DNA of 34,234 bases from a virus. Both the position numbers and the translations under genes were made by a program. A model generated the notes under the pieces. That model worked only from the letters and a program-made list of their open reading frames with translations, made no database searches and was not told the origin of the DNA. Of the stretch, positions 2,575 to 33,722 are shown piece after piece. The first letter of the stretch is position 1, and every line of letters starts with the position of its first letter. The DNA lies in the IMG/VR virus record IMGVR_UViG_3300050026_000033, positions 1-34,234 of that record, one strand, 5' to 3'.

Positions 2575-2954
2575 TGATTAGAGTAATTTATATCTTGGGG
2601 GATATATTAAGAGAGGAATCTTTACTTACTAAAAAAGTTAATTCTGTTTGCAAGACAAATCCAACCTTTGAATCGGCTCTTAATACAATGTTTAAGTGGA
2701 TGGAAAAAAACAAAAAGGTCAAAATTGAATATCAAGGTATCCTACCTCAAGCAGATTATGAAGATGGCAAATTGTACAAGGTTTATCGTACGAGGATCAC
2801 GAAGGGGAAATATGAGGCTATTCGGGAAGTTGACAAAGTGCTTATTGATATAGCCCCTTCTTTGGAGATATCTATTCGCTGTTTATGTGGTGAAGTTCTA
2901 ATGAGTATCAAAGCTGTGATTGAAGCAAAGAAACAAAGATTAGCGGTGAATTGA
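2574..2954 (+). CDS. Hypothetical 126-residue protein
   Basis: The ATG at 2574 overlaps the upstream stop, and a TTG at 2571 is an alternative start. The protein mixes basic helices (MFKWMEKNKKVKI) with strands, and ends SIKAVIEAKKQRLAVN. No motif is recognised. The boundary sequences on both sides share the same 13 bases (GGTGAATTGATGA), so both starts depend on the same coupled stop/start context. Confidence 0.6.
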   Translation: MIRVIYILGDILREESLLTKKVNSVCKTNPTFESALNTMFKWMEKNKKVKIEYQGILPQADYEDGKLYKVYRTRITKGKYEAIREVDKVLIDIAPSLEISIRCLCGEVLMSIKAVIEAKKQRLAVN

Positions 2955-3244
2955 TGAAATACGGACACTCAAACAAGTTCCTGCGTAAGCAGGCAATGAA
3001 GCGACTTACTAGAATCCCTGAGAATCAATGGACAGAGGCGGATATAAGATTTGCCCGGATGGTTGCCGTTGAGCAGGAAGTTGAAAGAGCCTGCATGTTT
3101 GGCGACAGTATGGTTGAACCAACAGCTTTTCAGGGTTTGGCGGCAAGGTTTTCTTCAAAACCGCCAAGACCTATTTGGTGTAAATTTAATGGTATATCTT
3201 CATTTAAACAGAACCTTCTTGCACAAAAGGCTAAAGGTCTATGA
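2954..3244 (+). CDS. Hypothetical protein containing a capsid-like motif
   Basis: This 96-residue protein is translationally coupled to the previous gene through TGATG, and a TTG at 2951 is an alternative start. Its N-terminus is Lys/Arg-rich (HSNKFLRKQAMKRLTR). Residues 48-68 (MFGDSMVEPTAFQGLAARFSS) match residues 132-152 of this phage's own major capsid protein (MYGDCTLNPEQYNGLAPRFSS) at about half the positions, including GD, P, GLA and RFSS. It may be a decayed or repurposed piece of a related capsid gene, or the similarity may be coincidental. No other function can be assigned. Confidence 0.6.
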   Translation: MKYGHSNKFLRKQAMKRLTRIPENQWTEADIRFARMVAVEQEVERACMFGDSMVEPTAFQGLAARFSSKPPRPIWCKFNGISSFKQNLLAQKAKGL

Positions 3245-3738: not shown

Positions 3739-4413
3739 ATGGCAGACAGTTCAAAGATATGTTCTCGGTGTAAATCGAACAAATCAAGAAGTGAATTTAA
3801 TCACAATAAATCAAATAAAGATGGGTTGCAATACTACTGCAAGGATTGTCAAGCAAAGTCCTGTAAGGAATATTTTAAAAAAGAATCGGCAAAAGAAATA
3901 AAAAGAAAATGGGATAAAGAAAATGTAGTGAATATTCGTCTTGCCAGAAAAAAGTATCGAGCTGCTAATATGACGAAGGTGTTAGAACAACAAAAAAACT
4001 GGCGAATAAATAATCCCGGTAAACATAAAGTAATTTCTGATAAGAGTTATTATAAGAGATCCAGTAAGCCCGCCTTTAAAATTTCAGCAAGAATCCGCAC
4101 AGGAATGTGGAAGTCTATAAGATTATTAAAAGATAATCGTCACTGGGAAACACTTGTTGACTATACAGCAAAACAATTAATGAATCATCTTGAGAAGCAA
4201 TTTCTATCGGGGATGTCGTGGAAAAATATGGGCGAGTGGCACATTGATCACAGAATCCCGATCTCGGCTTTTAATTTTAATTCACCAACAGACATCGATT
4301 TTAAGCGTTGTTGGGCCTTGTCTAACTTGCAACCGTTGTGGGCTTCGGATAACGAAAGGAAAAATAATAAATTAACTCATCCATTTCAACCAGCCCTAGC
4401 AATGGAGATTTAA
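3739..4413 (+). CDS. HNH homing endonuclease with N-terminal zinc finger
   Basis: This 224-residue protein has an N-terminal zinc-finger-like module (C8, C11, C34, C37) followed by a basic helical linker. The C-terminal HNH nuclease motif is EWHIDHRIP (H168, D170, H171), then LSNLQPLWASDNERKNN. This is the common free-standing phage homing endonuclease layout. Such an enzyme cuts DNA lacking the insertion and spreads itself by repair. It sits between the small-gene cluster and the portal gene, with its own hairpin in front, as expected for an inserted selfish gene. It appears intact. Its target is probably a nearby portal or packaging sequence in related phages (inference). Confidence 0.88.
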   Translation: MADSSKICSRCKSNKSRSEFNHNKSNKDGLQYYCKDCQAKSCKEYFKKESAKEIKRKWDKENVVNIRLARKKYRAANMTKVLEQQKNWRINNPGKHKVISDKSYYKRSSKPAFKISARIRTGMWKSIRLLKDNRHWETLVDYTAKQLMNHLEKQFLSGMSWKNMGEWHIDHRIPISAFNFNSPTDIDFKRCWALSNLQPLWASDNERKNNKLTHPFQPALAMEI

Positions 4414-4415
4414 TA

Positions 4416-6110
4416 ATGAAAGATAATACTAGTAAAATAGAAGAGTTAAGAGACCACCTACAGAGGCGCATGAGCAGCATGGAAAATGAGCGCATCTCTT
4501 TCCTCAACCATTGGCAGGAGATAGCCGATCATATCCGCCCGCGCTCGCTTCGTATTAATACCACCATAGACGAAAGCAAGGGCGTAAAAACCAACCGTAA
4601 AATAATTGATTCCACGGCGACACTGGCGAGTAGAACGCTACGTTCTGGCCTGATGGCTGGGCTGACATCACCAGCTCGCCCGTGGTTCAAACTCGGCACT
4701 ACCGACCCTCAGTTACAGGAGTTCGGGCCGGTGAAGCAATGGCTTTACGATGTTGAGGTCACCCTTAAAGATATTATGACCAAATCCAATCTATACCAGG
4801 TATTGCCATCTATTTATGGCGCATTAGGAGATTATGGTATGGGGGCTATGTATGCGATGGAAGACGATGCCTCAACTGTCCGTTTTTACTTTTTTATGAA
4901 CGGCCAGTACATGATCGCAGTAAATGAGCATAACCGCTGCGATACCCTATACCGCCGCTATCCGATGACCGTAAGACAATTAGTCAAGATGTTCGGTGAA
5001 AACAAAGTCTCTCCGTCCGTCAAGAATATGTACGAATCTAAGCAATACGAAACTGAAATTGAGGTAGTCCATTGCATAGAACCTAATGATGATAGGGATA
5101 GGATAAGAATTTCAGCCGACAATAAGCCCTACAGATCAGTCAAGTATGAGTGGGGTTCAAGTCAGAATCTAGTTTTAAATCAATCCGGCTTTGATGAATT
5201 TCCGATCATGGCGCCGCGGTGGGATTTGTGGGACGATTCTTGTTATGGATATTCCCCTGGCATGGATGCGTTAGGTGACATCAAAGGACTAATGTTAGAG
5301 CATAAGCGCAAAGCTCAGGCCATTGACAAATGGGTCGATCCGCCGATGTTGGGAGATTCGCTGCTCAGGACGGCGAGAACATCCACTTTACCCGGAGATA
5401 TAACCTATATTGATGGACTTGCATCAAACGCTCACGCAGGATTTAGGCCACTTTATGAAGTAAGGCCGGAGATTTCCTCACTCCTTGAGGACATTCATGA
5501 AACACAATCAAGGATAAAGCGATGCTACTTTGAAGATATGATGCAGATGATCACCGAGTCGGACAATCCTGAAATGACTGCTAGAGAGATTGAAGAACGG
5601 CACAGCGAGAAAGTTCTGGCTTTGGGGCCGGTGATGGAACGTCTCAATGATGAGCTTCTTGATCCTCTAATTAAAAGAGTTTTTGGGATATGTTTCCGTC
5701 GAGGCATTATCAAACCTCCGCCTCCCGCACTGGCTGGTCAGGACTTCCCACAAAAGATCGAATACACTTCAATCCTTGCGCAGGCTTCAAAGCTGATAGG
5801 GACTGCCAATATTGAGAGAGTGGCACAGTTCACTGGAGAGCTGGCACAGGCGCACCCAGAAGTAATTGACAAGTTTGATGCTGATGAGGCTGTGGACACC
5901 TACGCAGAGATGCACGGAATAAATCCGAACATTATCAGAACAAAAGAACAGGTCAAGCCTTTAAGGGATGCGAGACAAAAGAAGGAGCAGGCGGCGCAGA
6001 TGGCCCAGATGGCCCAGCCCTTAAAAGACGCTGCGCAAGCTGGCAAGGCTATGGGGGACACAAATTCAGGCGGCGTTCAAGATTTAGTTAAATCGATGAC
6101 AGGGCAATAA
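4416..6110 (+). CDS. Portal (head-tail connector) protein
   Basis: At 564 residues the length is typical of the T7-like head-to-tail connector family. The N-terminus (RDHLQRRMSSMENERISFL then HWQEIADHIRPR) and LRSGLMAGLTSPARPWFKL are hallmark segments. GYSPGMDALGDIKGLMLEHKRKAQAIDKWVDPP and MTAREIEERHSEKVLALGPVM are also diagnostic. It forms the dodecameric ring at one capsid vertex through which TerL pumps DNA and to which the tail attaches. The C-terminus is a Gln/Ala/Met-rich helix. A GGAG lies before the ATG, and the gene ends with a one-base overlap with the next start (TAATG). Confidence 0.95.
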   Translation: MKDNTSKIEELRDHLQRRMSSMENERISFLNHWQEIADHIRPRSLRINTTIDESKGVKTNRKIIDSTATLASRTLRSGLMAGLTSPARPWFKLGTTDPQLQEFGPVKQWLYDVEVTLKDIMTKSNLYQVLPSIYGALGDYGMGAMYAMEDDASTVRFYFFMNGQYMIAVNEHNRCDTLYRRYPMTVRQLVKMFGENKVSPSVKNMYESKQYETEIEVVHCIEPNDDRDRIRISADNKPYRSVKYEWGSSQNLVLNQSGFDEFPIMAPRWDLWDDSCYGYSPGMDALGDIKGLMLEHKRKAQAIDKWVDPPMLGDSLLRTARTSTLPGDITYIDGLASNAHAGFRPLYEVRPEISSLLEDIHETQSRIKRCYFEDMMQMITESDNPEMTAREIEERHSEKVLALGPVMERLNDELLDPLIKRVFGICFRRGIIKPPPPALAGQDFPQKIEYTSILAQASKLIGTANIERVAQFTGELAQAHPEVIDKFDADEAVDTYAEMHGINPNIIRTKEQVKPLRDARQKKEQAAQMAQMAQPLKDAAQAGKAMGDTNSGGVQDLVKSMTGQ

Positions 6111-6445: not shown

Positions 6446-7193
6446 AGCAAACGAGATTGAAAAAACTGAAATAAGCACAGAAGTAAAAAATGATCTACCC
6501 ATTGATCCAAAGGCACAACCACAGCCTGATGATCTGTCCAAGTTATTTACAGAGGATGACATCAAGGCGAAGAAAGAGACTATTGCCAAGACCAAAGCCG
6601 ATGAGGAACGGAGGGCGAAACTGTCCGAAGCCGAACGTAAGGCCGAGGACAAGGTGAAGTCTGACGAAGCAGAGAAGAAAGCGAAAGAAGCGGCAAAGGA
6701 TATTGTGCCGGAAAAGTATGACGAGTTCAAAGTGCCTGACGGTATGGAGCTCGACAAAGAAATGATGAATGAAGCTACGCCTCTATTCAAGGAGATAGGA
6801 CTGTCTCAGGAGAAGGCGCAGAAAATAGCAGACCTCTACGGAACCAAGATCGTTCCGATGATGTTGAAACGCTGGCAGGATTCTATGGAACAGCAGAAGG
6901 CCGCCTGGCACGCCGAGACCATAGCCAACAAGGAAATAAAACTAGATGCGGACGGTAAGAACTTGGACGCTATCAGGGTGATTAATTCCCTGTTTCCGAA
7001 GGACAAGGCTGATGCCCTTAGGGCGGATTTTGTCAAATTGGGAATGGATCAGCATCCCGGACTCAACCTTTTGCTGGCTAAGATGGCTGTCCATTTGAAA
7101 GAAGACACCATTGAACTTGGCAGAGACAAAGGCGGGAAGACGGCTCCGAAGACAGTAGAGAGTTACGCAGCCGCGCTATACGGTAAAAAATAA
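6438..7193 (+). CDS. Capsid scaffolding protein
   Basis: This 251-residue, highly charged, Lys/Glu/Ala-rich protein has a long predicted coiled coil (about residues 30-95) and lies directly before the major capsid gene. Residues 95-150 contain PEKYDEFKVPDGMELD then TPLFKEIGLSQEKAQKIADLY, a segment conserved in podovirus scaffold/capsid assembly proteins. It should guide capsid protein into procapsids and then leave. It overlaps the previous gene by eight bases and uses the GGGAGAAA ribosome binding site at 6424-6431. Confidence 0.85.
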   Translation: MTEANEIEKTEISTEVKNDLPIDPKAQPQPDDLSKLFTEDDIKAKKETIAKTKADEERRAKLSEAERKAEDKVKSDEAEKKAKEAAKDIVPEKYDEFKVPDGMELDKEMMNEATPLFKEIGLSQEKAQKIADLYGTKIVPMMLKRWQDSMEQQKAAWHAETIANKEIKLDADGKNLDAIRVINSLFPKDKADALRADFVKLGMDQHPGLNLLLAKMAVHLKEDTIELGRDKGGKTAPKTVESYAAALYGKK

Positions 7194-7215
7194 AATTAAA
7201 GGAAGGTAAACTATT

Positions 7216-8271
7216 ATGGCAGTAATGTTTGGAACGGGCAATTGGCCCTCATTGTTAAATGTGACGAAGACGCTTGACCCCGATGGGAAAACAGCGGCGA
7301 TCGTCGAGTTGTTACAGCAAACCAATCAACCCCTTTTGGATATTCCGTGGAAAGAGGGCAACTTGCCTGACGGCGAAAGAACTACGATAAGGACGGGGCT
7401 TCCTGTTCCTATCTTTAGGAAGTGGTATCAGGGCGTCCCGGTAACCAAATCGAACTACGCTCAGATAACCGACACATGCGCGGACTTACAGGCACGGCAC
7501 GAAGTGGATAAGAAGGCCGCCGATTTCAACGGCAACTCCGATAGCTTCAGAATGATTGAAGCTCTTGGTGAAATCGAAGGCATGAACCAGACGCAGATGA
7601 CCGCCCTTATGTATGGCGATTGCACGTTGAACCCGGAGCAGTATAATGGCTTAGCGCCCCGGTTTTCGTCTCTGTCAGCAGGCAACGCGCAGAACATCAT
7701 TGACGCAGGTGGTACAGGTGCAGACAATATGTCAATATGGCTGGTATGCTGGGGCATGTACACCGTATTCGGTATTTACCCGAAAGGAAGCAAGGGCGGT
7801 TTAAATCATCAGAACCTCGGTGAGATTGACTGCTTTGATGTTAACGGCGATAAGTTCCGTGGCTACGCGGACATTTGGGATTGGGAATGCGGCCTCTGTG
7901 TGAAGGACTGGAGATACATCGTTCGTATCGCCAATATCGATGCGTCAGACCTGATTGCCCAGAATGCGAGTGCGGCGAACATCGTAACTCTGATGGTCAA
8001 GGCTTTGCATAGAGTCCCGAACCTCGGCATCGTACAGACCGGAATCGAGAACCCGACTGTGAACGGTGCGGCTTCTATTCCTCTGGCTCCTAATCCTGTG
8101 TTCTATTGCAACAGGACGGCAGCGGAATATCTGGACATCGAATCCCTGAACAAGACGCAGTATACTCTGAAATCAGGAAATGATGTCTTTGGCAGGCCGA
8201 TAACCTTCTGCCGTGGTATTCCGGTAAGGACTTGCGACCAGTTGACATCGGGTGAAGCGCAGGTAACGTGA
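7216..8271 (+). CDS. Major capsid protein (Bbp17-like)
   Basis: This 351-residue protein follows the scaffold gene and has a strong ribosome binding site (AAAGGAAGG). The sequence resembles the BPP-1-type major head protein: N-terminal DPDGKTAAIVELLQQTN, then LMYGDCTLNPEQYNGLAPRFSS (residues 131-152). Later segments include SIWLVCWG and YVAAD-like capsid text such as VFYCNRTAAEYLDIESLNK. It should adopt the HK97 fold and build the icosahedral shell. The spacing, the length and the following cement protein gene all fit. Confidence 0.9.
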   Translation: MAVMFGTGNWPSLLNVTKTLDPDGKTAAIVELLQQTNQPLLDIPWKEGNLPDGERTTIRTGLPVPIFRKWYQGVPVTKSNYAQITDTCADLQARHEVDKKAADFNGNSDSFRMIEALGEIEGMNQTQMTALMYGDCTLNPEQYNGLAPRFSSLSAGNAQNIIDAGGTGADNMSIWLVCWGMYTVFGIYPKGSKGGLNHQNLGEIDCFDVNGDKFRGYADIWDWECGLCVKDWRYIVRIANIDASDLIAQNASAANIVTLMVKALHRVPNLGIVQTGIENPTVNGAASIPLAPNPVFYCNRTAAEYLDIESLNKTQYTLKSGNDVFGRPITFCRGIPVRTCDQLTSGEAQVT

Positions 8272-8306: not shown

Positions 8307-8810
8307 ATGAATTTAGACATATTAACTAGTTTTTGCTACGCGTATGCGTTAACTGGCGCGGGGCCGATGTACTCCACCGGAGCTACGACAGGTGGTACAT
8401 TCGGGACGGGATATATCGATCTCGGCGCAAGCGATGAATTTTCCCTAAGCGGCGGGAAGGTATACGAGGGAGTAGGAGAACCGCTGATGGTTGAAGCCCT
8501 GCTTTCAACCACGTTAAACGATGCCAATACGCCAAGGACGATCACCTGCGTAGTGACGTTGCAGTCGGACACCGTGGCTACCTTTAACAGCGGCAGCCAG
8601 TTTACAATTATGACGCTCGGCACTTTCGCCGCAGGCGCAAAGGCAGGCTCTTTGCTGATAGGCTATCTGCCTGTCAGCCAGGGGTTCTACCGGTATTTGA
8701 GAATGGTATTTACATTCTCTGGTTCTCTGACCGGCGGCGCGATTTCAGGATTCTTGCTGCATGATGCACAGCTCAATGTGTGCTATCCGTCAAGAATCAC
8801 TATCGGTTAA
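8307..8810 (+). CDS. Bbp16-family capsid cement protein
   Basis: This 167-residue protein is placed directly after the capsid gene with a good AAAGGAG ribosome binding site. The sequence follows the Bbp16 pattern: LDILTSFCYAYALTGAGP at the start, TGYIDLGA, GVGEPLMVEALL, and the C-terminal FYRYLRMVFTFSGSLTGGAISGFLL. In BPP-1 the related protein forms jelly-roll trimers that sit on the capsid and stabilise it. No enzyme motif is present. It is probably expressed at the level of the capsid protein. Confidence 0.85.
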   Translation: MNLDILTSFCYAYALTGAGPMYSTGATTGGTFGTGYIDLGASDEFSLSGGKVYEGVGEPLMVEALLSTTLNDANTPRTITCVVTLQSDTVATFNSGSQFTIMTLGTFAAGAKAGSLLIGYLPVSQGFYRYLRMVFTFSGSLTGGAISGFLLHDAQLNVCYPSRITIG

Positions 8811-8885: not shown

Positions 8886-9392
8886 ATGGTTCTAATCATT
8901 GTAGGCTCCGCGCCGTGCGCGATAGAAGACATCTTAAACTTTTCTACGCTGGGGAATGATGAATGTGATTTTATGGCCGTAGGGATGGACGCGTTTAAAA
9001 GCCCTGTGCCGTGGAAATATGTCGCCTCAGGTCATACAGAGGACTTGTCTTCAATTAAAGCCTACGCGGGGCTCCGCAAGCAAAAAGGCTATGAATTGAT
9101 CCACTACCAGCCCTTAAAGGGTGTGGACATTGTTGTGCCGTTGGATATGTGGGAAGGCGGGTCATCGGCTCTCATGGGGGTTATGGCGGCGCTTAAACTT
9201 GGTTACAATAAGATTGTTCTTTGCGGAGTGCCTCTTGAAGGCCCGAACCCCGGACATCCCGGCGCGGACTATTCGATGTTTCAAGGTAAATGGACGGAGA
9301 GCGTTTCTGTTTTATGTCATTACGTAAGGTCTATGAGTGGGTTCACAAAGGGACTTCTGGGAGAACCGACTAAGGAATGGTTAAATGATTGA
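8886..9392 (+). CDS. Rossmann-like protein, possible DUF115/glycosyltransferase-like
   Basis: At 168 residues, it begins with a hydrophobic strand and loop, VLIIVGSAPCAIEDI, and has a second strand, ALKLGYNKIVLCGVPLEG. This layout is seen in DUF115/MAF-like and sialyltransferase-like Rossmann folds. The C-terminus (GKWTESVSVLCHYVRSMSGFTKGLLGEPTKEWL) recurs in phage proteins of this type. No catalytic residues can be assigned with confidence. It opens a four-gene module with methyltransferase and glycosyltransferase genes, so a role in sugar or nucleotide-sugar chemistry is a reasonable guess. An AGGGGG ribosome binding site precedes the ATG. Confidence 0.6.
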   Translation: MVLIIVGSAPCAIEDILNFSTLGNDECDFMAVGMDAFKSPVPWKYVASGHTEDLSSIKAYAGLRKQKGYELIHYQPLKGVDIVVPLDMWEGGSSALMGVMAALKLGYNKIVLCGVPLEGPNPGHPGADYSMFQGKWTESVSVLCHYVRSMSGFTKGLLGEPTKEWLND

Positions 9393-9942
9393 CCTTAATC
9401 AAAAAAATAAATTTGAGCAAATATGGGATAAAGGAGATTATCGCCTTGGATCAACTGCTCAACGTATGCTTCCGCTTATCTTAGAGGTCATTCCTGAAAA
9501 TGCAACGATCAATGATTATGGTTGCGGAACTGGGCGGATGGAAGTTGAGCTTATAAGAGAACGTCCCAAACAAAATGTGACAATGATTGATATTGCCGAG
9601 AACGCTCTGGAATATGAATTGATCTACCTTAAATTTATCCTGGCCGATTTGACCGATCTTTCATCTGCGCCTCATGCTGATTGGGGAATTTGTATTAATG
9701 TTTTAATGACAGTTCAGCCAGATAATCTTGATACGATATTAAAAGAAATCCGGCGAACCTGTGACAATCTGATTATGGAAGTTTACGACTTCGATGATTC
9801 AATCCGGTTAGGCCTTCAGCTTACCACCGTGAAAAAGAATGCCGCCGAATGGATGGACAAACTAAAAGAGCATTGGCAAGACATTGAGTGTATGCAAAGC
9901 CCTGAATCGAAACAAAGATATATTTTTATATGCAGGGAATAA
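9385..9942 (+). CDS. Class I SAM-dependent methyltransferase
   Basis: This 185-residue protein has motif I DYGCGTG (residues 44-50), the SAM-binding loop of class I methyltransferases, followed by the acidic strand-2 end MIDIAENAL and a motif IV-like region WGICINVLMTVQPDN. No target-recognition domain typical of DNA methylases (DPPY or PC motifs) is visible, so a small-molecule, sugar or protein substrate is more likely. It overlaps the previous gene by eight bases. Confidence 0.8.
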   Translation: MIDLNQKNKFEQIWDKGDYRLGSTAQRMLPLILEVIPENATINDYGCGTGRMEVELIRERPKQNVTMIDIAENALEYELIYLKFILADLTDLSSAPHADWGICINVLMTVQPDNLDTILKEIRRTCDNLIMEVYDFDDSIRLGLQLTTVKKNAAEWMDKLKEHWQDIECMQSPESKQRYIFICRE

Positions 9943-11012
9943 TGAATATTTTAGAACTGAAAAACTCCTATAAATACCAGACTTGCTATATTGTTGGCCG
10001 AGGAGCTTCGTTGCTTCAGATAACGAAAGAACATTTTGGAGATGGCCCTATCATCGTTTTAAATGAGGCTATTTATAACATCTCTGAACTTGGTTTAGGG
10101 AATGATATTTATTCGCAGTGGCGAAATGGAGATATGCCGGATAATTTATTAAAATATTTCAAAGAAGGTGACGCGCTTTTACTGTGCGAAAATCCCGTTC
10201 CTGAATATGTTTCGACAGCGGATCAATACAAAGATTATAGTCCGCTTTATACATTTGAATGTCAACGCGATCTTAATTGCGAACCACGATTGACCTTTTC
10301 ACACAAAGCAGCGGTGGAAATCGCTGTTAATATTTTTGGTTGCACCAAATTGGTTATGATCGGATTTGATTCTTTCCGTGGAGATAACCGAACTGTATTA
10401 CAGGGCGATTTCGTTCAATCCGAATACCGCCCAGGGGATTACCATGAGCAGATAGTCATTGTGCAAAGAAGAATTGCTGAATTGAATATTTCCGCTGAGT
10501 GGGTGTTTCCCGCTGAAACATTCAAGGAAGCGGCACTTATCCGACTAAATATAGGTTGCGGTTCTGTCAAAGAGCAGGGCTACATCAATATTGATTTGCA
10601 TGATTCAAGTGCAGATTTAATCATGGACACACGCGATCTTGAATATGTCGATAACTCCGTGGATGAAATTTACTCAAGCCATTTACTCGAACACATGGGT
10701 AAATATGAAGTCCTGCCGGTATTGAAGGAATGGGCGCGGGTTCTAAAATCAGGCGGTCTTTTAAAACTGAATCTTCCTAATTTGGAATGGTGCTTGAAAA
10801 ACTGGCTGGCTCAATCGGAAGATAAACGATGGGGACTTAATCTTGATATGATCTTCGGCTTACAGTCGAACCCTGGCGAATATCACAAGACAGGATTTTC
10901 CAAGGCTCATTTGGAATGTTATCTGAGGCAGGCAGGATTTGAAGAAATTAAAATAGCCGATCACTGGTCGCACAATCAACAGTGTTTTTGGGTGGAGGCC
11001 GTGAAACGATGA
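9942..11012 (+). CDS. Fusion of a DUF115-like domain and a SAM methyltransferase
   Basis: This gene encodes 356 residues from the ATG at 9942 (AGGG ribosome binding site; overlaps the upstream stop); an in-frame ATG lies at 9930. Residues 1-195 form a Rossmann-like domain with CYIVGRGASL, IIVLNEAI and KLVMIGFDSFRGD, reminiscent of DUF115/MAF-type proteins. Residues 200-355 form a methyltransferase: LNIGCGS (202-208), acidic INIDLHD, then SSHLLEHM and EWARVLKSGGLLKLNLPN, as in the Methyltransf_11 group. Linking the two domains in one chain suggests successive steps on the same glycan-like substrate (inference). Confidence 0.75.
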   Translation: MNILELKNSYKYQTCYIVGRGASLLQITKEHFGDGPIIVLNEAIYNISELGLGNDIYSQWRNGDMPDNLLKYFKEGDALLLCENPVPEYVSTADQYKDYSPLYTFECQRDLNCEPRLTFSHKAAVEIAVNIFGCTKLVMIGFDSFRGDNRTVLQGDFVQSEYRPGDYHEQIVIVQRRIAELNISAEWVFPAETFKEAALIRLNIGCGSVKEQGYINIDLHDSSADLIMDTRDLEYVDNSVDEIYSSHLLEHMGKYEVLPVLKEWARVLKSGGLLKLNLPNLEWCLKNWLAQSEDKRWGLNLDMIFGLQSNPGEYHKTGFSKAHLECYLRQAGFEEIKIADHWSHNQQCFWVEAVKR

Positions 11013-12070
11013 TTTCTGTAATCACAGCTACAGGAGATAGGCCGGAAACGTTTGACCTCTGCCAAAAATGGATGGCGGCGCAAACTGTCCAACCCGATCA
11101 ATGGATAGTTGTTGATGACGGAAAAACTCCCATGGCCTCAATTTCTGGTTGTGATTATATCCGGCGTGAACTGCAAAAAAGTGATCCACTACACACAATG
11201 TTATTAAATATTAAAACAGCACTTCCTCACGTCAAAGGCGATTCAATATTATTTTGGGAAGATGATGAATACTATGCGCCTGCCTACATTGAGGAAATGA
11301 ATAAGCGTCTAAAGCAATATGAAATAGTTGGCATAGGAAGGAGCAAATATTATCATTTTCCCGCCAGTATGTATCTAAGGCATGACAATATGGGTCATGC
11401 TTCTTTAGCGCAGACGGCTTTTAATTCATCCTTCCTGCCGTCTGTAAATAAATTAATAGCAGGGGATATGTTTCTTGATATCAGAATGTGGGAGAAGTTC
11501 AACGGCAAAGATGCTCCGTTATGCGCGGACACTGACCACAGCGTAATAGAACGTAAAACAATCCACGGACAGGGAATAATCTTTGACGATGGCGAAGATA
11601 ATTGTCTTTATGTTGGCATAAAAGGATTGCCCGGGCGCAAAGGTATAGGATCGGGGCATAGAGATTTTAGTAAATACATTTCCGACTCAGACGGAAGCGT
11701 ATTTAAAAAATGGATTCCAAAGGATCATAAAATATACGCGGATTCTTTTTTAAAGATACCTTTAGAAAATTTAAAAAAAAGGAGAGATTACACAATGAAT
11801 TACAGAGCAATCAATAACGGCGGTTTCATTCCCGCTAATAGTCCTTACAAATCTTCGGTGTATGGGCGCATCAATCCCGGAACGGTTTTTGAATATGACG
11901 GGCCGGAAGGTCTTTGGATGCAACCTATCGAAGAGCCGGAAAAGAAAATAATCCCTGTAGAGGAACTTCCTGTTTACGATGCGGCGAAGAAGATATCAGA
12001 GAGTCGCGGATTGCCTTCTTTGGAGAAAACGCCGCTGGATTCCAAACCAAAATTAAAGGGTAAAAAATGA
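11009..12070 (+). CDS. Family 2-like glycosyltransferase with C-terminal extension
   Basis: This gene encodes 353 residues from an ATGA-coupled start with a GGTGGAGG ribosome binding site. Residues 1-100 show the GT-A nucleotide-sugar fold: ISVITATGDRPETF, WIVVDDG (DDG at 36-38) and LFWEDDEYYAPAYIEEM, whose EDD (84-86) fits the metal-binding DxD position. It should transfer a sugar from a nucleotide donor. Residues 263-353 form a separate extension (NYRAINNGGF...PGTVFEYDGPEGLWMQPIEE) resembling small stand-alone phage proteins. A perfect AAGGAG lies eight bases before the Met at that junction, so a second short product is possible. Confidence 0.8.
   Translation: MISVITATGDRPETFDLCQKWMAAQTVQPDQWIVVDDGKTPMASISGCDYIRRELQKSDPLHTMLLNIKTALPHVKGDSILFWEDDEYYAPAYIEEMNKRLKQYEIVGIGRSKYYHFPASMYLRHDNMGHASLAQTAFNSSFLPSVNKLIAGDMFLDIRMWEKFNGKDAPLCADTDHSVIERKTIHGQGIIFDDGEDNCLYVGIKGLPGRKGIGSGHRDFSKYISDSDGSVFKKWIPKDHKIYADSFLKIPLENLKKRRDYTMNYRAINNGGFIPANSPYKSSVYGRINPGTVFEYDGPEGLWMQPIEEPEKKIIPVEELPVYDAAKKISESRGLPSLEKTPLDSKPKLKGKK
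11779..11797 (+). promoter_or_regulatory. Internal ribosome binding site and in-frame start
   Basis: AAGGAG (11779-11784) precedes an in-frame ATG at 11795 inside the glycosyltransferase gene. Initiation here would give a 91-residue protein identical to the C-terminal extension. A run of eight As (11773-11780) lies directly upstream and could be a slippage site or the scar of a gene fusion. Confidence 0.5.
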
Positions 12071-12735
12071 ACACTGCAAATCAAATAAGCATTTACAACA
12101 TGGCCTTAAATGCCATTGGAGTTTCAGATAATGTGCAGGATGTGAATGAAGGCAGTCAGCAATCGAACACCTGCAATACTTTTTGGGATGCTGTAGTGGA
12201 TCAGGTCTTGCAGGCGTTCCCTTGGGGATTTGCGATGGCGTATGCTGACCTGCAATTAATTTCTTTGACAGTTCCGGGATGGCGTTTCTGTTATGCTTAC
12301 CCCTCGGACTGTGTTCAGGCAAGAATAGTTTTACCTCAAACCCGGCAGCCTTCGGTTGATTTTGTGGCATTGGGATATTGCGCAGTATTTGATGGCGGTT
12401 GGGATTTAAGGGATGGCTGGGGCCGGAAGGTTCCCTTTGCGGTTGTTTCTGACGCGGCGGAAGGTCGCAATGCTATTGCAACCAATTTACCTAATGCCAT
12501 ATTGGGATATACTCAACGGATGGTGATAAGTCCTTTGTGGAGTCCGGCTTTTGTCAACTGTGTGGTTTGGCTTCTAGCTTCAAAGATAGTTGCACCCTTA
12601 GCAAAGAGCCCAGACTATGCACAGATGGCGGGAAAGGCTTACGAAAGCGCTTTATTAGAAGCGGGCGCATTGAGTTTAAATGAAGGAAAAGAAAGGCGAG
12701 AACCCGAATCAGAACTGATCACTTGCCGTTATTAG
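12067..12735 (+). CDS. Tail tubular protein A-like adaptor
   Basis: At 222 residues, the opening (NQISIYNMALNAIGVSDNVQDVNEGSQQSN then FWDAVVDQVLQAFPWGFA) is the typical N-terminus of podovirus head-tail adaptor/TTPA (T7 gp11-like) proteins. It is followed by PGWRFCYAYPSDCVQAR. The protein is expected to form a ring beneath the portal and join the nozzle. It overlaps the glycosyltransferase gene by ATGA and is followed directly by the nozzle gene, the usual gene pair. Confidence 0.85.
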   Translation: MNTANQISIYNMALNAIGVSDNVQDVNEGSQQSNTCNTFWDAVVDQVLQAFPWGFAMAYADLQLISLTVPGWRFCYAYPSDCVQARIVLPQTRQPSVDFVALGYCAVFDGGWDLRDGWGRKVPFAVVSDAAEGRNAIATNLPNAILGYTQRMVISPLWSPAFVNCVVWLLASKIVAPLAKSPDYAQMAGKAYESALLEAGALSLNEGKERREPESELITCRY

Positions 12736-17905: not shown

Positions 17906-19653
17906 TGATGCAACTTCCACAATATAACGAAAGAGTCGAACCCAATACTTTGCCGGTTGCCAATTATGACACGGGAGACCCAGTGGCAAAAGCCGCTGAA
18001 GGTCTAGGTAAAACGATTGAAGGTGTTGGTGGTCAGATGCAGGACTTCGCTTATCAGGAGAAAGTGAAGGCCGACAAAACGGTTGTCCGTGACAGCTATG
18101 TTAATTTTTCAAAGGAGATCATTGACCTTGAATCAGACGGCCTCAGAAGAAAAGGCAAGGATGCTTTCGATGTTGATTCCTACAATCAGAAATTTTCAGA
18201 AATAAAAGATAAATATAAAAGCCAACTAAATAACAAAAACCAAAATTTCATGTTCGACAACCAGACGAAGATGGAAGAGATAAGGTTTACCACTTCCCTT
18301 CATCGTCATTCAGCAATAGAAGCTGATGAATTAAACAAAGGCAATGCCAAAGCCCAGACGGAAATGGATGAGCAGAAACTATCTCTCGGCTATCAAGACC
18401 CTGCTAATTATGACGAGAAGAACCCTAACAGCATGATCAGCAAGTTTCTTGTTTCCGCAGATGAGCAAGCAAAAATACATGGCCTTTCGGAGAAAGACCC
18501 TGAATATCAGGAAGTGATGGCAGGCGCAAGGTCTAAGGCTTATGTTGACAGGATTAAATTACTAATGACTGACAGGCCGTCAGAAGCCCTGAAATTCTAC
18601 AAGGAGCATGAGAGCGACATTAATGTTGAACAGCGGGAAACTCTGGGAAAAACGCTTGAGCATTTAAGCGATGAACAGCAGGGAATGAACGCGGCCTTTT
18701 CTTATTTGACTGACATTACCAACGGCAAGAAAAGCGAAACGGAAATCACAAAGGAACTGCATGATAAGTTTGCCGACAATCCCGGCTCTTTTAAAGTCGC
18801 TCAGGCGGAACTTAATCATCTGTATGCTCAGAACCATGCCGATCAGGTAAGTGCCGCGGCGAGAGTAGGCACAAAGATAGAAGCGACAGTTGATAAGGCC
18901 GTAGGGAATGGACAGGTTGTTTCCCTTAAACTTTTAAAGGGTATTCCCGAATACAACGATCTTGAGAAATTGGCGGCTGGAGGTAACAAGGCCGCTGAAC
19001 TCGAACTCAATAGAATGAAATCCTATGTCTCAAAGACGGAAGGTCAGCAGAAGCGGGAAGCCAAACAGGAGGCAATACAAAACAGGCAGTTGGCTTTACA
19101 GGAAAAACAGATTAAAAAGGCAGAAGCGGAAGATTTCATGCGGGGCATTCAAGACCCTCAAACCTTGACTAAGATGACGGAAACGGATTTGGTAGAGCAA
19201 GGCCGTAAGCATGGTTTGTCCTATGCACAAATAGATAAGGTTAAAGCTGACCGGAAAAAAGAAATCAAAGATATGCAAGACCCGAAGATGCAACATAATC
19301 AGAATTTGAAAAACTCTATGGTTAATTCCGTTCTTGATTCAGCGCAAGTAAAAGACGAAGATGCGCGAGCCGCTTTTGGGCAGTATTTTAGAATAGCCAT
19401 TAAGAAAAAAGAGGATGAACTAAAACGCCCTTTGACCGATGATGAAATTAAACAAGCCGGAATAGAAGGTTTGCAGAACGGAGCCCTACATTGGAATCCT
19501 GGCAAGAAAGGCATATTTGGAATTGGCGCAAAAGAGGGCGCATGGGAAGATACAAAGAAGCAAAACATGTCAGAAGATAAATACGGCCATGCGGTAGGTG
19601 ACACTTTTAAAGGCTATAAATATATAGGGAACGATCAATGGAAGAAAATATAG
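17905..19653 (+). CDS. Internal virion protein C-like
   Basis: This 582-residue protein is hydrophilic and predominantly helical, with long Lys/Glu/Gln coiled segments (about residues 260-430). It begins QLPQYNERVEPNTLPVANYDTGDP and has a GVGGQMQDFAYQEKVKAD region, the usual start of podovirus gp15-like internal core proteins. It lies in the standard B-C-D order. It should be part of the inner core and be ejected to form the DNA channel across the periplasm. Start overlaps the upstream stop (TAATG); an ATG three bases later is equivalent. Confidence 0.72.
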   Translation: MMQLPQYNERVEPNTLPVANYDTGDPVAKAAEGLGKTIEGVGGQMQDFAYQEKVKADKTVVRDSYVNFSKEIIDLESDGLRRKGKDAFDVDSYNQKFSEIKDKYKSQLNNKNQNFMFDNQTKMEEIRFTTSLHRHSAIEADELNKGNAKAQTEMDEQKLSLGYQDPANYDEKNPNSMISKFLVSADEQAKIHGLSEKDPEYQEVMAGARSKAYVDRIKLLMTDRPSEALKFYKEHESDINVEQRETLGKTLEHLSDEQQGMNAAFSYLTDITNGKKSETEITKELHDKFADNPGSFKVAQAELNHLYAQNHADQVSAAARVGTKIEATVDKAVGNGQVVSLKLLKGIPEYNDLEKLAAGGNKAAELELNRMKSYVSKTEGQQKREAKQEAIQNRQLALQEKQIKKAEAEDFMRGIQDPQTLTKMTETDLVEQGRKHGLSYAQIDKVKADRKKEIKDMQDPKMQHNQNLKNSMVNSVLDSAQVKDEDARAAFGQYFRIAIKKKEDELKRPLTDDEIKQAGIEGLQNGALHWNPGKKGIFGIGAKEGAWEDTKKQNMSEDKYGHAVGDTFKGYKYIGNDQWKKI

Positions 19654-22600
19654 TATCATCCAAAGACCTATTTGGAGAACAAAATAATACTATAACAACG
19701 GCGGAGTTATTTAAGGATACTCCGGGATCATCTCTTTCCCGGTCTGCTATAATTTCTCACAATACCGATTCGGACAAGTACGCTCAGAACCGTAAGGCAA
19801 CGACAGATCAGGGTATCCCTGCGGCCTTTGCTACGCCTGCTAATAAGGCTTCAAATATGGATGATATGCTATCCACGATCAAAGATTTCTTAGGCTTGAA
19901 AGGCAAGACTGCCAAACATATGAGTGACCCTGAATTTGCGAAAGTGGCGAAAGACGATCATAAACCTTTGACGGATTTAGAAAACAAATTTAATAATAAG
20001 CCGTGGTATTTACAAGTTGCGGATGTTGCAAAAAGCGAAGGCCAGACAATAGCCTCTCTGGGCTTAGGTGCTACTGGCTGGATTCCTGCTGGACTGTCAA
20101 TGTTTTCCTTTGATAAGCGTTCTCTTTCTGAAAGGGCGCAGACCGCTAAAGATATTCAAGAATCATTATCCTATACTCCGACAGACCCCGAAGCAAAAGA
20201 GATAGTGGATAGCGTGTCAAAACTTTTTCAATATCCAGCAGAAAAAGGGCATGAAAGCGAAGCATACTGGAACAAATTAGCAGACGAATCTAAAGCTAAG
20301 GGCAACCATAAACTATCTGAAATGTATCGTGCTTTTTCTTTTACGGCAGGTTTTGGCGGTGAAGCGGCTCCTTTTCTTGCTCCGATAGCTGCGGAGATTG
20401 GAATGAAACATATCGGAGGAATCGTTGACACCGCTAAGCAAATCAAGAGCAAGGGCGACCCTCTTGTCAAAGAAGCCATTAAAGATATGACCGGTGATTC
20501 CACGGTTCAGGCTCCCCTTGCCGTAGTTGATGACATCTTGACCAAAGCAAAGACCACGCCGGAAGAAGCCCTGACCGACCCGACAGCCTACTATGAGCAG
20601 AAGTTTGAGGGCATGGCAAGCGATACTCCTGTAAAAGCAGACTTACCCATGCCTGACGTTGCCACCCTTTCTAACCATATTACCCCTGAGCATATCAAGG
20701 ACATGTCAGTGGAGGGTATTCCTTCTCAAAATGAGGCAGAAGCCCTCAAAGCTGAAGAGCAAGCCAAGACACAGGCCGAGGGAGATAATGCCGTGGCGGG
20801 GGCAAATTCAAAGGATGCAGAGACAAATAAGGCTAATCCTGACCAACCCAAGCCCCAAGGTCTATCCGCTGAAATGAAGGGGGCGGATGAAACCGGCAAA
20901 CCTTTATCCGAGCAGACACCGGACAAGACGGGTGATATGTTTGGCAATGAGAAAGGCATGGTTGACCTTGAACCCGCCATCCAATCGGCGCGGGAAGCCC
21001 TCCAAAAAATAAGAGAAGGAAATGAAGCATCTAAGTATGGAGAAGCACTAAGGACTTTCTATACAGGAGCAAGAGATTACAGAATTGCCGAAACTAACCA
21101 ATTAAGAGACGGTTTAAAGAAAATCATCCCTGATTTCAAAGATCAAGAGGCTCTCAGTTTATTAAGAGACTTCAAGGGAAAAGAAGCCGATTTAGCAAAA
21201 CGGCGTGCGGAGTACGAAAAGGCAGGTGATAAAAAGATTGTTTCCGTTATTGACCGCGCCTTAAATCCTTCTAAAGAACTTCTCAAATCCGATAAGCGGA
21301 TGACTGCCTATTTTGAGAAGCATTTGGAAGAAGGGAAGAAGCTAGGATTTCTTGATAGCTCCATAACAAACGAACAATACATTACCCATCTTTTGGAGCC
21401 GGAAGAAAAAGTAGGCGGTAAAGGTAAGGGCGGCATAGGCGGCGGAAAGATAGGCCGCAACTTCCAGTTTGCCAAGTCAAGAAAATATGAAAACATCTTA
21501 GATGCTTACGATAATCCAAGCGTCAAAGTCAAGACAATGAATGCTCTTGATGCCATGACGATTTACGGAGACAGGCACGCAACGGCGGCGGCAACCAAAC
21601 TCCTTACAAATGAACTCAAGAATACCGAGATGGGTAAGTGGGGATTTAGGACCTCCGATAAAATACCTCGCGAATGGGTTGAATTAAGCCCAGGGCGCGA
21701 GTTATTCCGAAACAGGATACCTTATATAGACAAAGAGACGGGCGAGGCGGCAATCGCGACACAGAACCTTTATGTGCCCGAAAAAGTGGCTGATGCCTTG
21801 AAACCTATCATTGACCCCGCGAGCATAGCTAATGTGCCGGGATTTAAAAAGGGCAGAATGTATCAGGCGTATATCAAGGGTGTTGAATTAGGTCTGTCTG
21901 TCTTTCATATGAAGGCCCTGAACATTACGGCTTTGAATAATGCCAAACTGTCATCTATGGTAAAAAGTTTTGCTTCCGATATGGGATCACCGGAATTTAC
22001 GGGAGAAGAACTTGACCTGATAAAACACGGCGGAACTACTTCTGTTTTGGGAAGAACGATTGAAGCATACAAAGCGGCGCAACCTTCTACATTCCCTTCA
22101 AGAATGGACATGATAAGAAATCTCCCCGGAATCAAACAAGCAGACAAAGCGGCTCAATTCCTCACGCATGAAACTTTTGACGTAGTGCAAAGAAAATTTA
22201 AGGTTATGGGATATGCTTTGCAGAAAGCTCAATGGATGGCTAAACATCCAGCGGCGGATGCGCTGTCTTTGACTGAGGCCAAGAGGTCTATTGCAAAAGA
22301 AATCAATGCGGCATTTGGTGGCTTGCATTGGGAAAATATGGGCATGAATAAGAATACCCTTGAACTAAGTCGTGCTTTAATGCTTGCCCCTGATTGGACA
22401 TTTTCAAACGTAGTCAATGCCAAATACTCATTTGAAGGTGGGCCAGGCGGAAAGGCGGCACGGAAGTTTTGGATTAAATCTGCTGTCACCGGATGCCTAT
22501 TGACTCAAGCCATGAGCATGGCTGTTTCTGGGAAATATTCAAACCATGCTACGGAAGTTTATTTAGGCAAAGATAAGAACGGCGAGGACGTTTATTCAAA

Positions 22601-23273
22601 TACATTTTTCGCCGGTGCGCCAAAAGACGCTACGACTCTCTTTGAGAACATAAGGCAATTCGGAGCCATTGAAGGATTAGCTCATTCAATCGCCAGTAAG
22701 TTAGGCCCATTGGCAAGAACAGGAATGGAATTAGCGACAAACAAAGATTGGATGGGAAAAGACATTACAACCAAAGGCGCAGGATTCGGAAAGAACACTA
22801 TGAGGGCCGCAGGAGAAATCGCTTCTAACCTTGCACCTGTTCCTTTCAGCGTGAGTAATATTGCCAAGATGATTACTGACCCGAATGACAAAGAAGGTTT
22901 CTGGGATTACCTTTCAGTGTTGGGCGGAACTCCACCGCGCCATATGTCCGACGCGAGATCAAATATTTATGATCTGGAAAGAAAGAACGATCAAGACCAG
23001 ATGGAACAGTCGAAGATGAAATCGGCAATCGTCAACGCTTTCAGAAAAAACAAACCACTCGCCCCGGATCAGCGCAAGGCTTACAATGCAATGACTGAGG
23101 CACAGAAAAAAAACATTGACAAGGAATCCGAGATGACACCATTGCAGGTGGCTTTCTCTCATTTGTCACCCGCAAAAGTAGATCAAGTATGGAATAAATT
23201 AAGTGCGAAAGAAAAGATGGAACTCGGAGAGATTTACGAAAAGAAAATTGAAAATGAAGCAAATAAGGAGTAA
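19638..23273 (+). CDS. Internal virion protein D-like (large ejection protein)
   Basis: This 1211-residue protein is the largest in the window and overlaps the previous gene by 16 bases. Its size and place as the third internal protein match T7 gp16-type ejection proteins, which span the inner membrane and pull in DNA. Hydrophobic stretches occur around residues 140-160 and 235-255 (FTAGFGGEAAPFLAPIAAEIG). A low-complexity linker (KGKGGIGGGKIG) lies near residue 600 and a charged tail at the end. I see no lysozyme or transglycosylase motif at the N-terminus, unlike T7 gp16, so the peptidoglycan-cutting activity must lie elsewhere or be absent. Confidence 0.7.
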   Translation: MEENIVSSKDLFGEQNNTITTAELFKDTPGSSLSRSAIISHNTDSDKYAQNRKATTDQGIPAAFATPANKASNMDDMLSTIKDFLGLKGKTAKHMSDPEFAKVAKDDHKPLTDLENKFNNKPWYLQVADVAKSEGQTIASLGLGATGWIPAGLSMFSFDKRSLSERAQTAKDIQESLSYTPTDPEAKEIVDSVSKLFQYPAEKGHESEAYWNKLADESKAKGNHKLSEMYRAFSFTAGFGGEAAPFLAPIAAEIGMKHIGGIVDTAKQIKSKGDPLVKEAIKDMTGDSTVQAPLAVVDDILTKAKTTPEEALTDPTAYYEQKFEGMASDTPVKADLPMPDVATLSNHITPEHIKDMSVEGIPSQNEAEALKAEEQAKTQAEGDNAVAGANSKDAETNKANPDQPKPQGLSAEMKGADETGKPLSEQTPDKTGDMFGNEKGMVDLEPAIQSAREALQKIREGNEASKYGEALRTFYTGARDYRIAETNQLRDGLKKIIPDFKDQEALSLLRDFKGKEADLAKRRAEYEKAGDKKIVSVIDRALNPSKELLKSDKRMTAYFEKHLEEGKKLGFLDSSITNEQYITHLLEPEEKVGGKGKGGIGGGKIGRNFQFAKSRKYENILDAYDNPSVKVKTMNALDAMTIYGDRHATAAATKLLTNELKNTEMGKWGFRTSDKIPREWVELSPGRELFRNRIPYIDKETGEAAIATQNLYVPEKVADALKPIIDPASIANVPGFKKGRMYQAYIKGVELGLSVFHMKALNITALNNAKLSSMVKSFASDMGSPEFTGEELDLIKHGGTTSVLGRTIEAYKAAQPSTFPSRMDMIRNLPGIKQADKAAQFLTHETFDVVQRKFKVMGYALQKAQWMAKHPAADALSLTEAKRSIAKEINAAFGGLHWENMGMNKNTLELSRALMLAPDWTFSNVVNAKYSFEGGPGGKAARKFWIKSAVTGCLLTQAMSMAVSGKYSNHATEVYLGKDKNGEDVYSNTFFAGAPKDATTLFENIRQFGAIEGLAHSIASKLGPLARTGMELATNKDWMGKDITTKGAGFGKNTMRAAGEIASNLAPVPFSVSNIAKMITDPNDKEGFWDYLSVLGGTPPRHMSDARSNIYDLERKNDQDQMEQSKMKSAIVNAFRKNKPLAPDQRKAYNAMTEAQKKNIDKESEMTPLQVAFSHLSPAKVDQVWNKLSAKEKMELGEIYEKKIENEANKE

Positions 23274-31193: not shown

Positions 31194-33722
31194 CTACCTC
31201 CATTCTGCGAACGGATTATATTCATGAACGTGTCTTTCTCTCTGAGTAAGAAGTTCTCTCTCTGTCATCCTCGGAGCCACGGGAAAAGCAAAGGTCAAAG
31301 CCAAAGCATCCGCTAAATCAGGAGAACGTCCAAGCCTCTTTTTAACCTGATCCTTGTCCTCAAGAATTATCTTGCCGTTAGTGAAAGAATAGGTCGGTGT
31401 CGTCATTTCAGCTACAAGTTCAGGAATAGGCGGCAACATACCACCACCCTTCACCCAATCAGCCATTGCAAACCACATCTCAGCCCGTTTGTTTCGATAT
31501 CGCGGATCAATTGCTGGCCCGTGGAACTGAACGCCCAAAGGATGATAACCGGCTGTATGTAGATTATCAATCACACCGTGTCCCCAATGGCCGGTATCGT
31601 CTATAAAAAAAGCGTCGCACTCCCAATCTTTCTTGATGACAGCGCATTTAGCGGCTATGTCAGTTGTTCTAACCTGCCGCATTATCGTAGGCATCCCTGC
31701 AAAAAGCCCTTGCCGCGGAAAGATAACAGTTCGATCATCGCCAAACCTTGCAACATCAATCCCTAACACTCTGCCAGCCCACTCAAATTGATCTGCCTTT
31801 AAATGTACTTTCATCGCCGCTTCGACTTCTTCAATACCCAGTAAAGCATTAAAACCTTGCGGCGGGAACAGACCAAGGATTGTAGCCATTACCCAGGGAT
31901 TCTCTCTCCCGTGAGTTTCGATCTGTTCTTTGGCGTAGTCTATTGAAACGCGACTTGTCCTGTTTGGATCTTCAGGGTCAGCGGTAACAGTGACCACTTT
32001 CCATTGTCCTCTTAGCGTATTGCAGATTTGATATAATAATCCGTTTGTTGATGTAGGATTTCCACCAGTCGCAATTAAAGCATCTTTAGGATCGCCTGTG
32101 AATATTTGTTCTGCAGCCCTCCCTACGGCAACGGCCATATCTCCAATTTCATCGAGTAGAATAAAAGGGTATTTGCTATGCAGTCCCGACAATGCCCTAC
32201 CGATAGCGTCCGCATCGGCATCTTTAGCGTAAGACCGCGCAGATAAAAACCAAGTCTCTGGATGGTCTTTTGCTTGTATTCTTTCCTTGTGCCACTCGAA
32301 GGCATTACTTAGGTAGGTTGATTGTGATTGCCACTTAGAGAGTTCCGGCCAGAGGTTATCTGAGAGATTATCTTTTGTAATTGATAGTGCCGCGCCTTTT
32401 GGATGTTCTCCCTTATCGGCAAAACATGACAGCCTCCACCAACCGATGAGAGCGAGAACCATTGTGTTATGAGTGCATATAAAATCGTTTGTAAGATAAC
32501 ACTGTGATTCGTGGGCTACTTGAATACACATAGATTCCGCATCTTTTATCTGTTCAATCTTATCGATAAATCGCGTTAGATACCGTTGTTGTGGTAAAGT
32601 CCACCGTTTTGATTTTCTTTCTACCTTGAAAGGATTAAACGGTAGAGCTAACGTTACGCGATAACAAGTACGGCATATTATTTTTTCACCAGTTATTTTA
32701 TCTTTATATGAGCCCTGTTTTTCTCTTATCCTACCCGCTACCCCACCTAGAGACCTTACAAGCCATGCCACATCTGCCACAAGCTTCCGGGAAGTGCAAT
32801 CAAAACTAATATTATTATCTGTAGAGATACAACCATCAGTATCAAGTAATCCAGCGAGAATGTCCTTTCTTTGTTGGATTGATGATTGCTTGTAAAGAGG
32901 TGGAATAAACCGTTCATGGCTGCCCAATTCTGATAAGCCCAGATCCCTCAACTCTTTTAAAATCCCATAAATAGTGATATTTTTTCCTTCATTGGTGCGC
33001 CGTGTTGTATATCCTCTTTCAATAACTTCATTGTCGATTTCCGCGTCCATCCACGATGCGCTGCTTGTTTTTCTACAACCATCACCCAACCACGCACCCA
33101 AAACATAAGGATCTAAACTTAGATCAATACGGGGAAGTATCACGGCTGCTTGCGTTGGAATTTCAAATTGCCTTCTCGTTTTTCCATCGTTTGATTTATT
33201 GCGTGTTATGATTTGTTCTAAACTTATAACTGACCACCCATCAGCGGGAGTTCGCCAGTGTCTTTGGCTGATAGCAAGAGCCTCTTTCTTATCGCTCCAT
33301 TTACCACCACGCTGCTTTACGTGCCGCCTTTCGGTACGTCCGCGAACTTTCCATAGATGTTCGCGGCAACATTCTGTTTCTGATCCATCATTGAAAGTAA
33401 CACGAAAAACAGGAATAATACCCTGCATAAAAGTATGTAGAATTATCGTTTGAGTTCCATCGGGTGCAAAAACACTGTCCCCCGCTTTGAGATCACCCCA
33501 CCGGCGAAGACCATCGGGTGTATTTAGCAACATATTTACTGGTTGCGCTTTGCCGGGGCCGGTGCAAGCCTTCATAGCTACACGATTATTACCGGGCAAT
33601 GAATCAATAACTTCTTGTTGCCACTTGTCTAAAACGACATTAGGCCAGTTATCAGCAATAAACTTAGAAGCTGATTTGCGCCAGCTTTGTATTTTTTCTC
33701 TTGCCTTTTCAAGTGTGGTCAT
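31194..33722 (-). CDS. terL: Terminase large subunit containing an intein
   Basis: This gene encodes 842 residues, of which 361 are intein, so the mature protein is 481. The exteins form an ATP-driven packaging motor with an RNase H-like nuclease. The Walker A motif ACTGPGK is at residues 52-58, completed by Thr420 after splicing. Walker B is FILLDEIGD (D524, E525). Nuclease acidic residues are GIDVARFGDD (D656), FFIDD (D708/D709) and SPDLADAL (D802, D805). The protein cuts and pumps DNA through the portal. It is on the strand opposite to all other core virion genes. There is no clear ribosome binding site before the ATG. Confidence 0.95.
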   Translation of the reverse strand: MTTLEKAREKIQSWRKSASKFIADNWPNVVLDKWQQEVIDSLPGNNRVAMKACTGPGKAQPVNMLLNTPDGLRRWGDLKAGDSVFAPDGTQTIILHTFMQGIIPVFRVTFNDGSETECCREHLWKVRGRTERRHVKQRGGKWSDKKEALAISQRHWRTPADGWSVISLEQIITRNKSNDGKTRRQFEIPTQAAVILPRIDLSLDPYVLGAWLGDGCRKTSSASWMDAEIDNEVIERGYTTRRTNEGKNITIYGILKELRDLGLSELGSHERFIPPLYKQSSIQQRKDILAGLLDTDGCISTDNNISFDCTSRKLVADVAWLVRSLGGVAGRIREKQGSYKDKITGEKIICRTCYRVTLALPFNPFKVERKSKRWTLPQQRYLTRFIDKIEQIKDAESMCIQVAHESQCYLTNDFICTHNTMVLALIGWWRLSCFADKGEHPKGAALSITKDNLSDNLWPELSKWQSQSTYLSNAFEWHKERIQAKDHPETWFLSARSYAKDADADAIGRALSGLHSKYPFILLDEIGDMAVAVGRAAEQIFTGDPKDALIATGGNPTSTNGLLYQICNTLRGQWKVVTVTADPEDPNRTSRVSIDYAKEQIETHGRENPWVMATILGLFPPQGFNALLGIEEVEAAMKVHLKADQFEWAGRVLGIDVARFGDDRTVIFPRQGLFAGMPTIMRQVRTTDIAAKCAVIKKDWECDAFFIDDTGHWGHGVIDNLHTAGYHPLGVQFHGPAIDPRYRNKRAEMWFAMADWVKGGGMLPPIPELVAEMTTPTYSFTNGKIILEDKDQVKKRLGRSPDLADALALTFAFPVAPRMTERELLTQRERHVHEYNPFAEWR
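32466..33548 (-). mobile_element. Class 3 intein with LAGLIDADG homing endonuclease
   Basis: The intein covers residues 59-419 of the terminase precursor (361 residues), inserted exactly between Lys and Thr of the Walker A motif. It starts with Ala (AQPVNMLLNTPDGLRRWGDL), not Cys or Ser, and ends FICTHN before Thr+1. Class 3 inteins are defined by a Trp-Cys-Thr set, and all three are present: Trp124 two residues after block B His122, Cys399 at block F position 4, and Thr417 before the terminal His418-Asn419. The endonuclease part has both LAGLIDADG helices (LGAWLGDG 208-215; LAGLLDTDG 289-297) with their Asp residues, so homing activity is probably intact. Cys399 is the expected branch nucleophile. 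Confidence 0.93.

Follow-up and report, generated by a model that had tools for sequence, protein, structure and literature searches.

Between the cement and head-tail connector genes of the virus studied here lies a late module that we read, with about an even chance of being right, as a cytoplasmic glycan cassette for a virion protein. Its GT2 glycosyltransferase would be made as a fusion with a small protein of the capsid operon, the same small protein would also be made in free form, and the fused domain probably docks the enzyme. The window is the whole stretch of DNA analysed, 34,234 nucleotides of IMG/VR record IMGVR_UViG_3300050026_000033. We call the interval between cement and connector genes the slot and the small protein the slot protein; L followed by a number denotes one of the loci compared. 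The features are the following.

8307-8810 (+): cement/decoration protein, left border of the slot (phrog_427; decoration/cement matches in the PDB)
8886-9392 (+): g1, protein of 168 aa with a predicted Maf/GT42-like fold (AlphaFold2 model; structural matches to CstII and Maf)
9385-9942 (+): g2, predicted SAM-dependent methyltransferase (Methyltransf_25)
9942-11012 (+): g3, N-terminal half weakly DUF115/MptE-like, C-terminal half methyltransferase (Methyltransf_11; relatives in L002 and L060)
11009-12070 (+): g4, predicted GT2 glycosyltransferase in frame with the slot protein (PF00535; motifs DDGK and EDD; free homologues of the slot part)
11778-11784 (+): internal Shine-Dalgarno (SD) sequence AAGGAGA ahead of ATG 11795 (read directly)
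11795-12070 (+): putative gene hidden in frame within g4, conserved small slot protein of 91 aa, stop codon in common with g4 (free homologues)
12067-12735 (+): head-tail connector/adaptor, right border of the slot (phrog_394, 7e-42; PDB 8ck1)

A widened slot in the structural operon

The window belongs to an epsilon15/BPP-1-type podovirus, as marked by its portal (phrog_332), GP7-type capsid protein, cement (phrog_427), connector (phrog_394), and tail (phrog_376) genes. The GP7-type major capsid protein (PF20911, 3e-118) is encoded upstream of the module, and the cement protein matches decoration protein 8cjz and, weakly, the BPP-1 cement protein 3j4u. The four overlapping ORFs that the initial annotation had placed at 8886-12070, between the cement gene and the next virion gene, were found there. 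It had labeled the downstream gene tail tube; head-tail connector/adaptor fits better, given the phrog_394 match and a best PDB match to 8ck1, ‘Connector Protein’ (6e-17). Its view that the module occupies an unusual position was confirmed, as the capsid-to-connector gap is 3.8 kb here and about 0.8 kb in other phages. Of 71 loci examined, 64 have a gap of 650-1590 nt, and 36 public phage records range from 717 to 1267 nt; the five module carriers whose sequence covers the whole slot have 2.9-7.9 kb. Every module found in this podovirus clade sits in the cement-connector slot. Scans of the module region for promoters and terminators gave results near shuffle level.

Other large inserts occur in the slot. 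Those of L144 (10890-13622) and L214 (2701-4863) were considered as glycan genes and rejected; by eye they are long tailspike-like ORFs, which adjoin a free slot gene. In L019, as read by eye, four more ORFs lie between cement and g1 (3927-5986). All six module carriers have a cement protein of 166-168 aa, whereas the median length in 87 others is 144 aa; it has about 20 extra residues in the carriers relative to empty-slot relatives and extra loops rich in S/T/G. We regard the longer cement protein as a mere lead to the glycan acceptor, because its overall S/T content is not raised in module carriers and the six carriers form one clade.

Elsewhere in the window, three ORFs are worth recording. 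An 842-aa terminase large subunit-like ORF (31194-33722, minus strand) has, at about residues 288-350, a homing endonuclease domain of the LAGLIDADG type, and this insert is probably an intein. A short ORF at 2951-3244 (plus strand) resembles, over residues 36-70, the stretch 115-149 of phrog_212, a profile of major head proteins (E 2e-4), and is possibly a displaced head-protein fragment. The 1211-aa late-region ORF at 19638-23273 has an LPD22 domain (large polyvalent protein associated domain, E 2e-6), and its product is possibly an ejected internal virion protein.

Enzymes of the module and their exchange among phages

The first gene had been described as Rossmann/DUF115-like, and comparison of a structure prediction with MAF/Pse transferases had been suggested. 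The AlphaFold2 model of g1, built from 39 sequences, is confident (pLDDT 96.5), and its best structural match (VIA) is the Maf glycosyltransferase 5MU5 (Z 12.1, rmsd 3.4, 162 of 168 residues), with the CstII sialyltransferase at Z 11.6 and also at the top of the Foldseek ranking. The lead of the Maf/GT42 fold is modest, as some other Rossmann-type structures reach Z 10-11. A Pfam search with g1 found no family up to E 1, and the best PDB profile match was 2p2v (Cst-I, E 0.28). Despite the missing Pfam match, the predicted structure supports g1 as a putative DUF115/Maf-like transferase. Maf enzymes attach nonulosonic acids to Ser/Thr of flagellin through O-linkage (PMC11339370). The likeness of g1 to the Maf of Magnetospirillum (5MU5) and the CstII of Campylobacter lies in a predicted fold shared over nearly the whole length; however, with just 168 aa, g1 is shorter than Maf, and its sequence identity to Maf/GT42 enzymes is 11-17%.

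The g2 gene overlaps g1 by 8 nt. Its assignment as a methyltransferase stands above the curated Pfam cut-off (Methyltransf_25, 39.8 bits versus 27), and the motif DYG(C/S)GTG is kept in relatives. For g3, we place the start probably at ATG 9942 rather than at ATG 9930, to which the ORF extends, because of the TAATG junction, the AGGG upstream, and the L002 homolog that begins there. The third gene had been called a DUF115-methyltransferase fusion pairing two activities. This pairing holds as far as the C-terminal half, a methyltransferase (Methyltransf_11, 33.2 bits, cut-off 21.2); the N-terminal half has only a weak MptE-like match (E 0.11, 12.7 bits versus a cut-off of 34.6) and a weak hhalign match to g1 (19%).

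The GT2-like assignment of g4 holds: PF00535 is over its curated cut-off (24.2 bits versus 23.3; 94.7 bits for the L003 homolog), and the acidic nucleotide-sugar motifs DDGK (36-39) and EDD (84-86) are invariant across seven sequences. GTG 10982 was rejected as the start in favor of ATG 11009, which has a strong SD and an ATGA overlap with g3; a 4-nt ATGA overlap at 12067 also joins g4 to the connector gene. A structure model of g4 from seven sequences was discarded (pLDDT 52). No TM-like stretch was found in g1-g4.

Across the compared sequences, the module has constant ends, and its middle is swapped between phages. The first glycan gene is g1 in all six carriers, and the GT2 with its C-terminal domain is last in the five that reach it. 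In between, the window has methyltransferases, L003 and L016 have a CDDD-type transferase and a second GT2, and L017 has a CDDD-type domain alone; the CDDD family (L003:3010-3600) has no match in Pfam or PHROGs. The middle of L019 (6318-9451) is longer, with ORFs that by eye are methyltransferase-, radical-SAM-, and glycosyltransferase-like. Parts of the module also occur in L002 and in the 92-kb myovirus-type contig L005. L060 carries a four-part module in which g2 and g3 are fused and the GT2 has no slot domain, within a tail operon of siphovirus type (typed by eye). Structural genes flank the homologous modules in siphovirus- and myovirus-type contigs. More broadly, the g1 family was found in 45 IMG/VR loci; upstream genes are often structural (tail completion, baseplate, fiber, head), and downstream genes include methyltransferases, GT2, acetyl-, amino-, and sulfotransferases. 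In 50,697 public phage records, tblastn found no match to g1 or g4, and here both families are known almost only from metagenomic viruses. A genome scan returned three loci (a Verrucomicrobiota MAG, a Gottesmanbacteria MAG, and Kaistia), with no host for the phage among them.

The slot protein encoded within g4

The GT2 core of g4 covers about residues 1-245 and the slot domain about residues 263-353. The last 91 residues are not glycosyltransferase; they are homologous to a small protein for which other podoviruses have a gene of its own in the slot. The four-gene count of the initial annotation was correct for the ORFs themselves, but it overlooked the fifth gene inside g4 (11795-12070), the fusion, the internal start, and the exchange of the middle. 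The slot protein is free in the sister phage L141 (10568-10840), whose capsid protein is 77% identical and whose slot has no glycan genes, and in most relatives; free homologs are phiV10p12 (phrog_590), zth2-2, and the L141 gene. A matching small gene or domain was found in 58 of 71 slots. When fused tails were compared with free slot proteins by hhalign, the match was 94.6% (7e-8), and BLASTP of the slot domain to the free copy of L017 gave 3e-8; the slot domain of the window alone has no direct match in PHROGs. A search for the domain fused elsewhere returned only the loci already known and free genes.

An SD and a start codon stand at the domain boundary in the window (ATG), L003 (GTG), L016 (ATG), and L019 (ATG), with differing linker residues. 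The same genomes contain 722 internal in-frame starts, and in a ranking by anti-SD pairing the four came among the seven strongest; as the sites are homologous and the lineages form one clade, they do not count as four independent events. Nucleotide identity between the window and L003 is about 60% in the GT2 part and 45% in the linker, then 82% from 11804 on, a rise at the 11795 start that points to a small gene constrained together with the structural genes and to a diverging GT2 part. In our reading, g4 would yield two products, the fusion and, from the internal start, the free slot protein.

The main competing view, which we consider rather unlikely, keeps the virion-glycan cassette and takes the fusion as incidental: the stop codon that separated the GT2 from the next gene disappeared, translation of the small protein still begins at its own start, and the tail on the GT2 has no docking role. 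The small gene has indeed retained a full SD and start, the step in identity at 11795 is sharp, and the GT2 relatives examined elsewhere have no slot domain, ending shortly ahead of the junction or going into other sequence. However, the GT2-slot junction is open in all five lineages with spanning sequence, despite in-frame indels. In addition, the L017 GT2 ORF (6506-8023), which combines a CDDD-type putative transferase, GT2, and slot domain in 505 aa, finishes with a slot-domain copy whose boundary shows neither a start codon nor an SD, although a separate free slot gene with its own SD (ATG 7968, AAAGGAG) follows directly. That the fused copy is kept beside a free gene argues that the fusion is not mere gene sharing, and this combination, seen in one contig, favors a use for both forms.

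Proposed mechanism, alternatives, and known systems

In the mechanism that we propose, g1 as a Maf-like transferase and g4 as the GT2 would be the constant first and last genes of the cassette, and the exchangeable middle genes would set the chemistry of the glycan. The full-length g4 product would carry the GT2 joined to the slot protein, and the internal SD and start at 11795 would supply the free slot protein, needed by the phage anyway. The fused domain would then probably dock the GT2 onto the assembling head or head-tail junction. That the domain docks to the particle is a guess, because the slot-protein profile has no relative among PDB chains up to E 10. A fuller version, in which the slot protein is a docking handle that lets glycosylation take place on the nascent particle, the internal start provides the free form for assembly, and swaps of the middle alter the chemistry, is put forward tentatively.

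The initial annotation had the enzymes probably acting at the time of assembly, adding methylated sugars to capsid or tail proteins or modifying a surface glycan. The late structural position in unrelated phage types, the lack of a TM segment or carrier partner, the Maf-like fold of g1, and above all the GT2-slot fusion lend indirect support to action on virion proteins during assembly, with a virion protein as the putative acceptor of a sugar.

It is improbable, and less likely than an incidental fusion, that the enzymes instead alter a host surface glycan such as LPS for superinfection exclusion, with the late position as a convenient insertion site. Host surface glycan modification with superinfection exclusion is the role of GtrABC in P22-like phages, and O-antigen conversion is known from epsilon15/phiV10-type relatives; there are also GtrB-like phrog_841 matches among the GT2 homologs, in L003 and elsewhere. 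However, the module encodes no flippase or carrier-lipid enzyme and no TM segments, its position in structural operons recurs across unrelated phages, g1 is Maf-like, and the GT2 is fused to a capsid-operon protein. Although DNA can be a substrate of phage glycosyltransferases, glycosylation or hypermodification of the phage DNA by this module is highly improbable, as a base-modifying partner gene was not identified in the window, the location is late and structural, and the fold of g1 is Maf/GT42-like and not that of a DNA glucosyltransferase.

If a virion-directed cassette with both g4 products is correct, one gene would link a structural-operon protein to the enzyme that decorates the particle and would direct glycosylation to the virion. 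The widespread phrog_590-type slot protein would gain a testable role as a particle-binding domain, and phages would exchange surface chemistry through constant ends and a swappable middle. Standard annotation overlooks the small protein nested in the glycosyltransferase and would therefore record it as absent from the carriers, as if lost.

Virion glycosylation is described for mycobacteriophages Che8 and Rita (Freeman et al. 2023, as cited in PMC11256854). In them, as proposed for virion proteins here, phage-encoded glycosyltransferases are tied to capsid-protein sugars. In the F1 phage Maravista, the glycosyltransferase genes are located close to the genomic 3′ end and not, as in the window, between cement and connector, and the excerpt of PMC11256854 mentions neither a fusion of glycosyltransferase and slot protein nor an internal start. 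The open-access literature searched yielded no case of such a fusion with an internal start, or of glycosylation directed to the virion in this way.

Some phage endolysin genes give two polypeptides through an in-frame internal start, and share with g4 a long ORF, an internal SD and start, a short C-terminal product, and a common stop (PMC9430671). In g4, however, the long product would be a glycosyltransferase, and the short one a capsid-operon protein that is separate elsewhere and not the binding domain of the enzyme itself. The phrog_590 slot protein of epsilon15/phiV10-type phages (phiV10p12) is homologous to the C-terminal domain of g4 and occupies the same cement-connector slot, but there it is a free gene, and here its sequence closes a GT2 ORF in the same reading frame.
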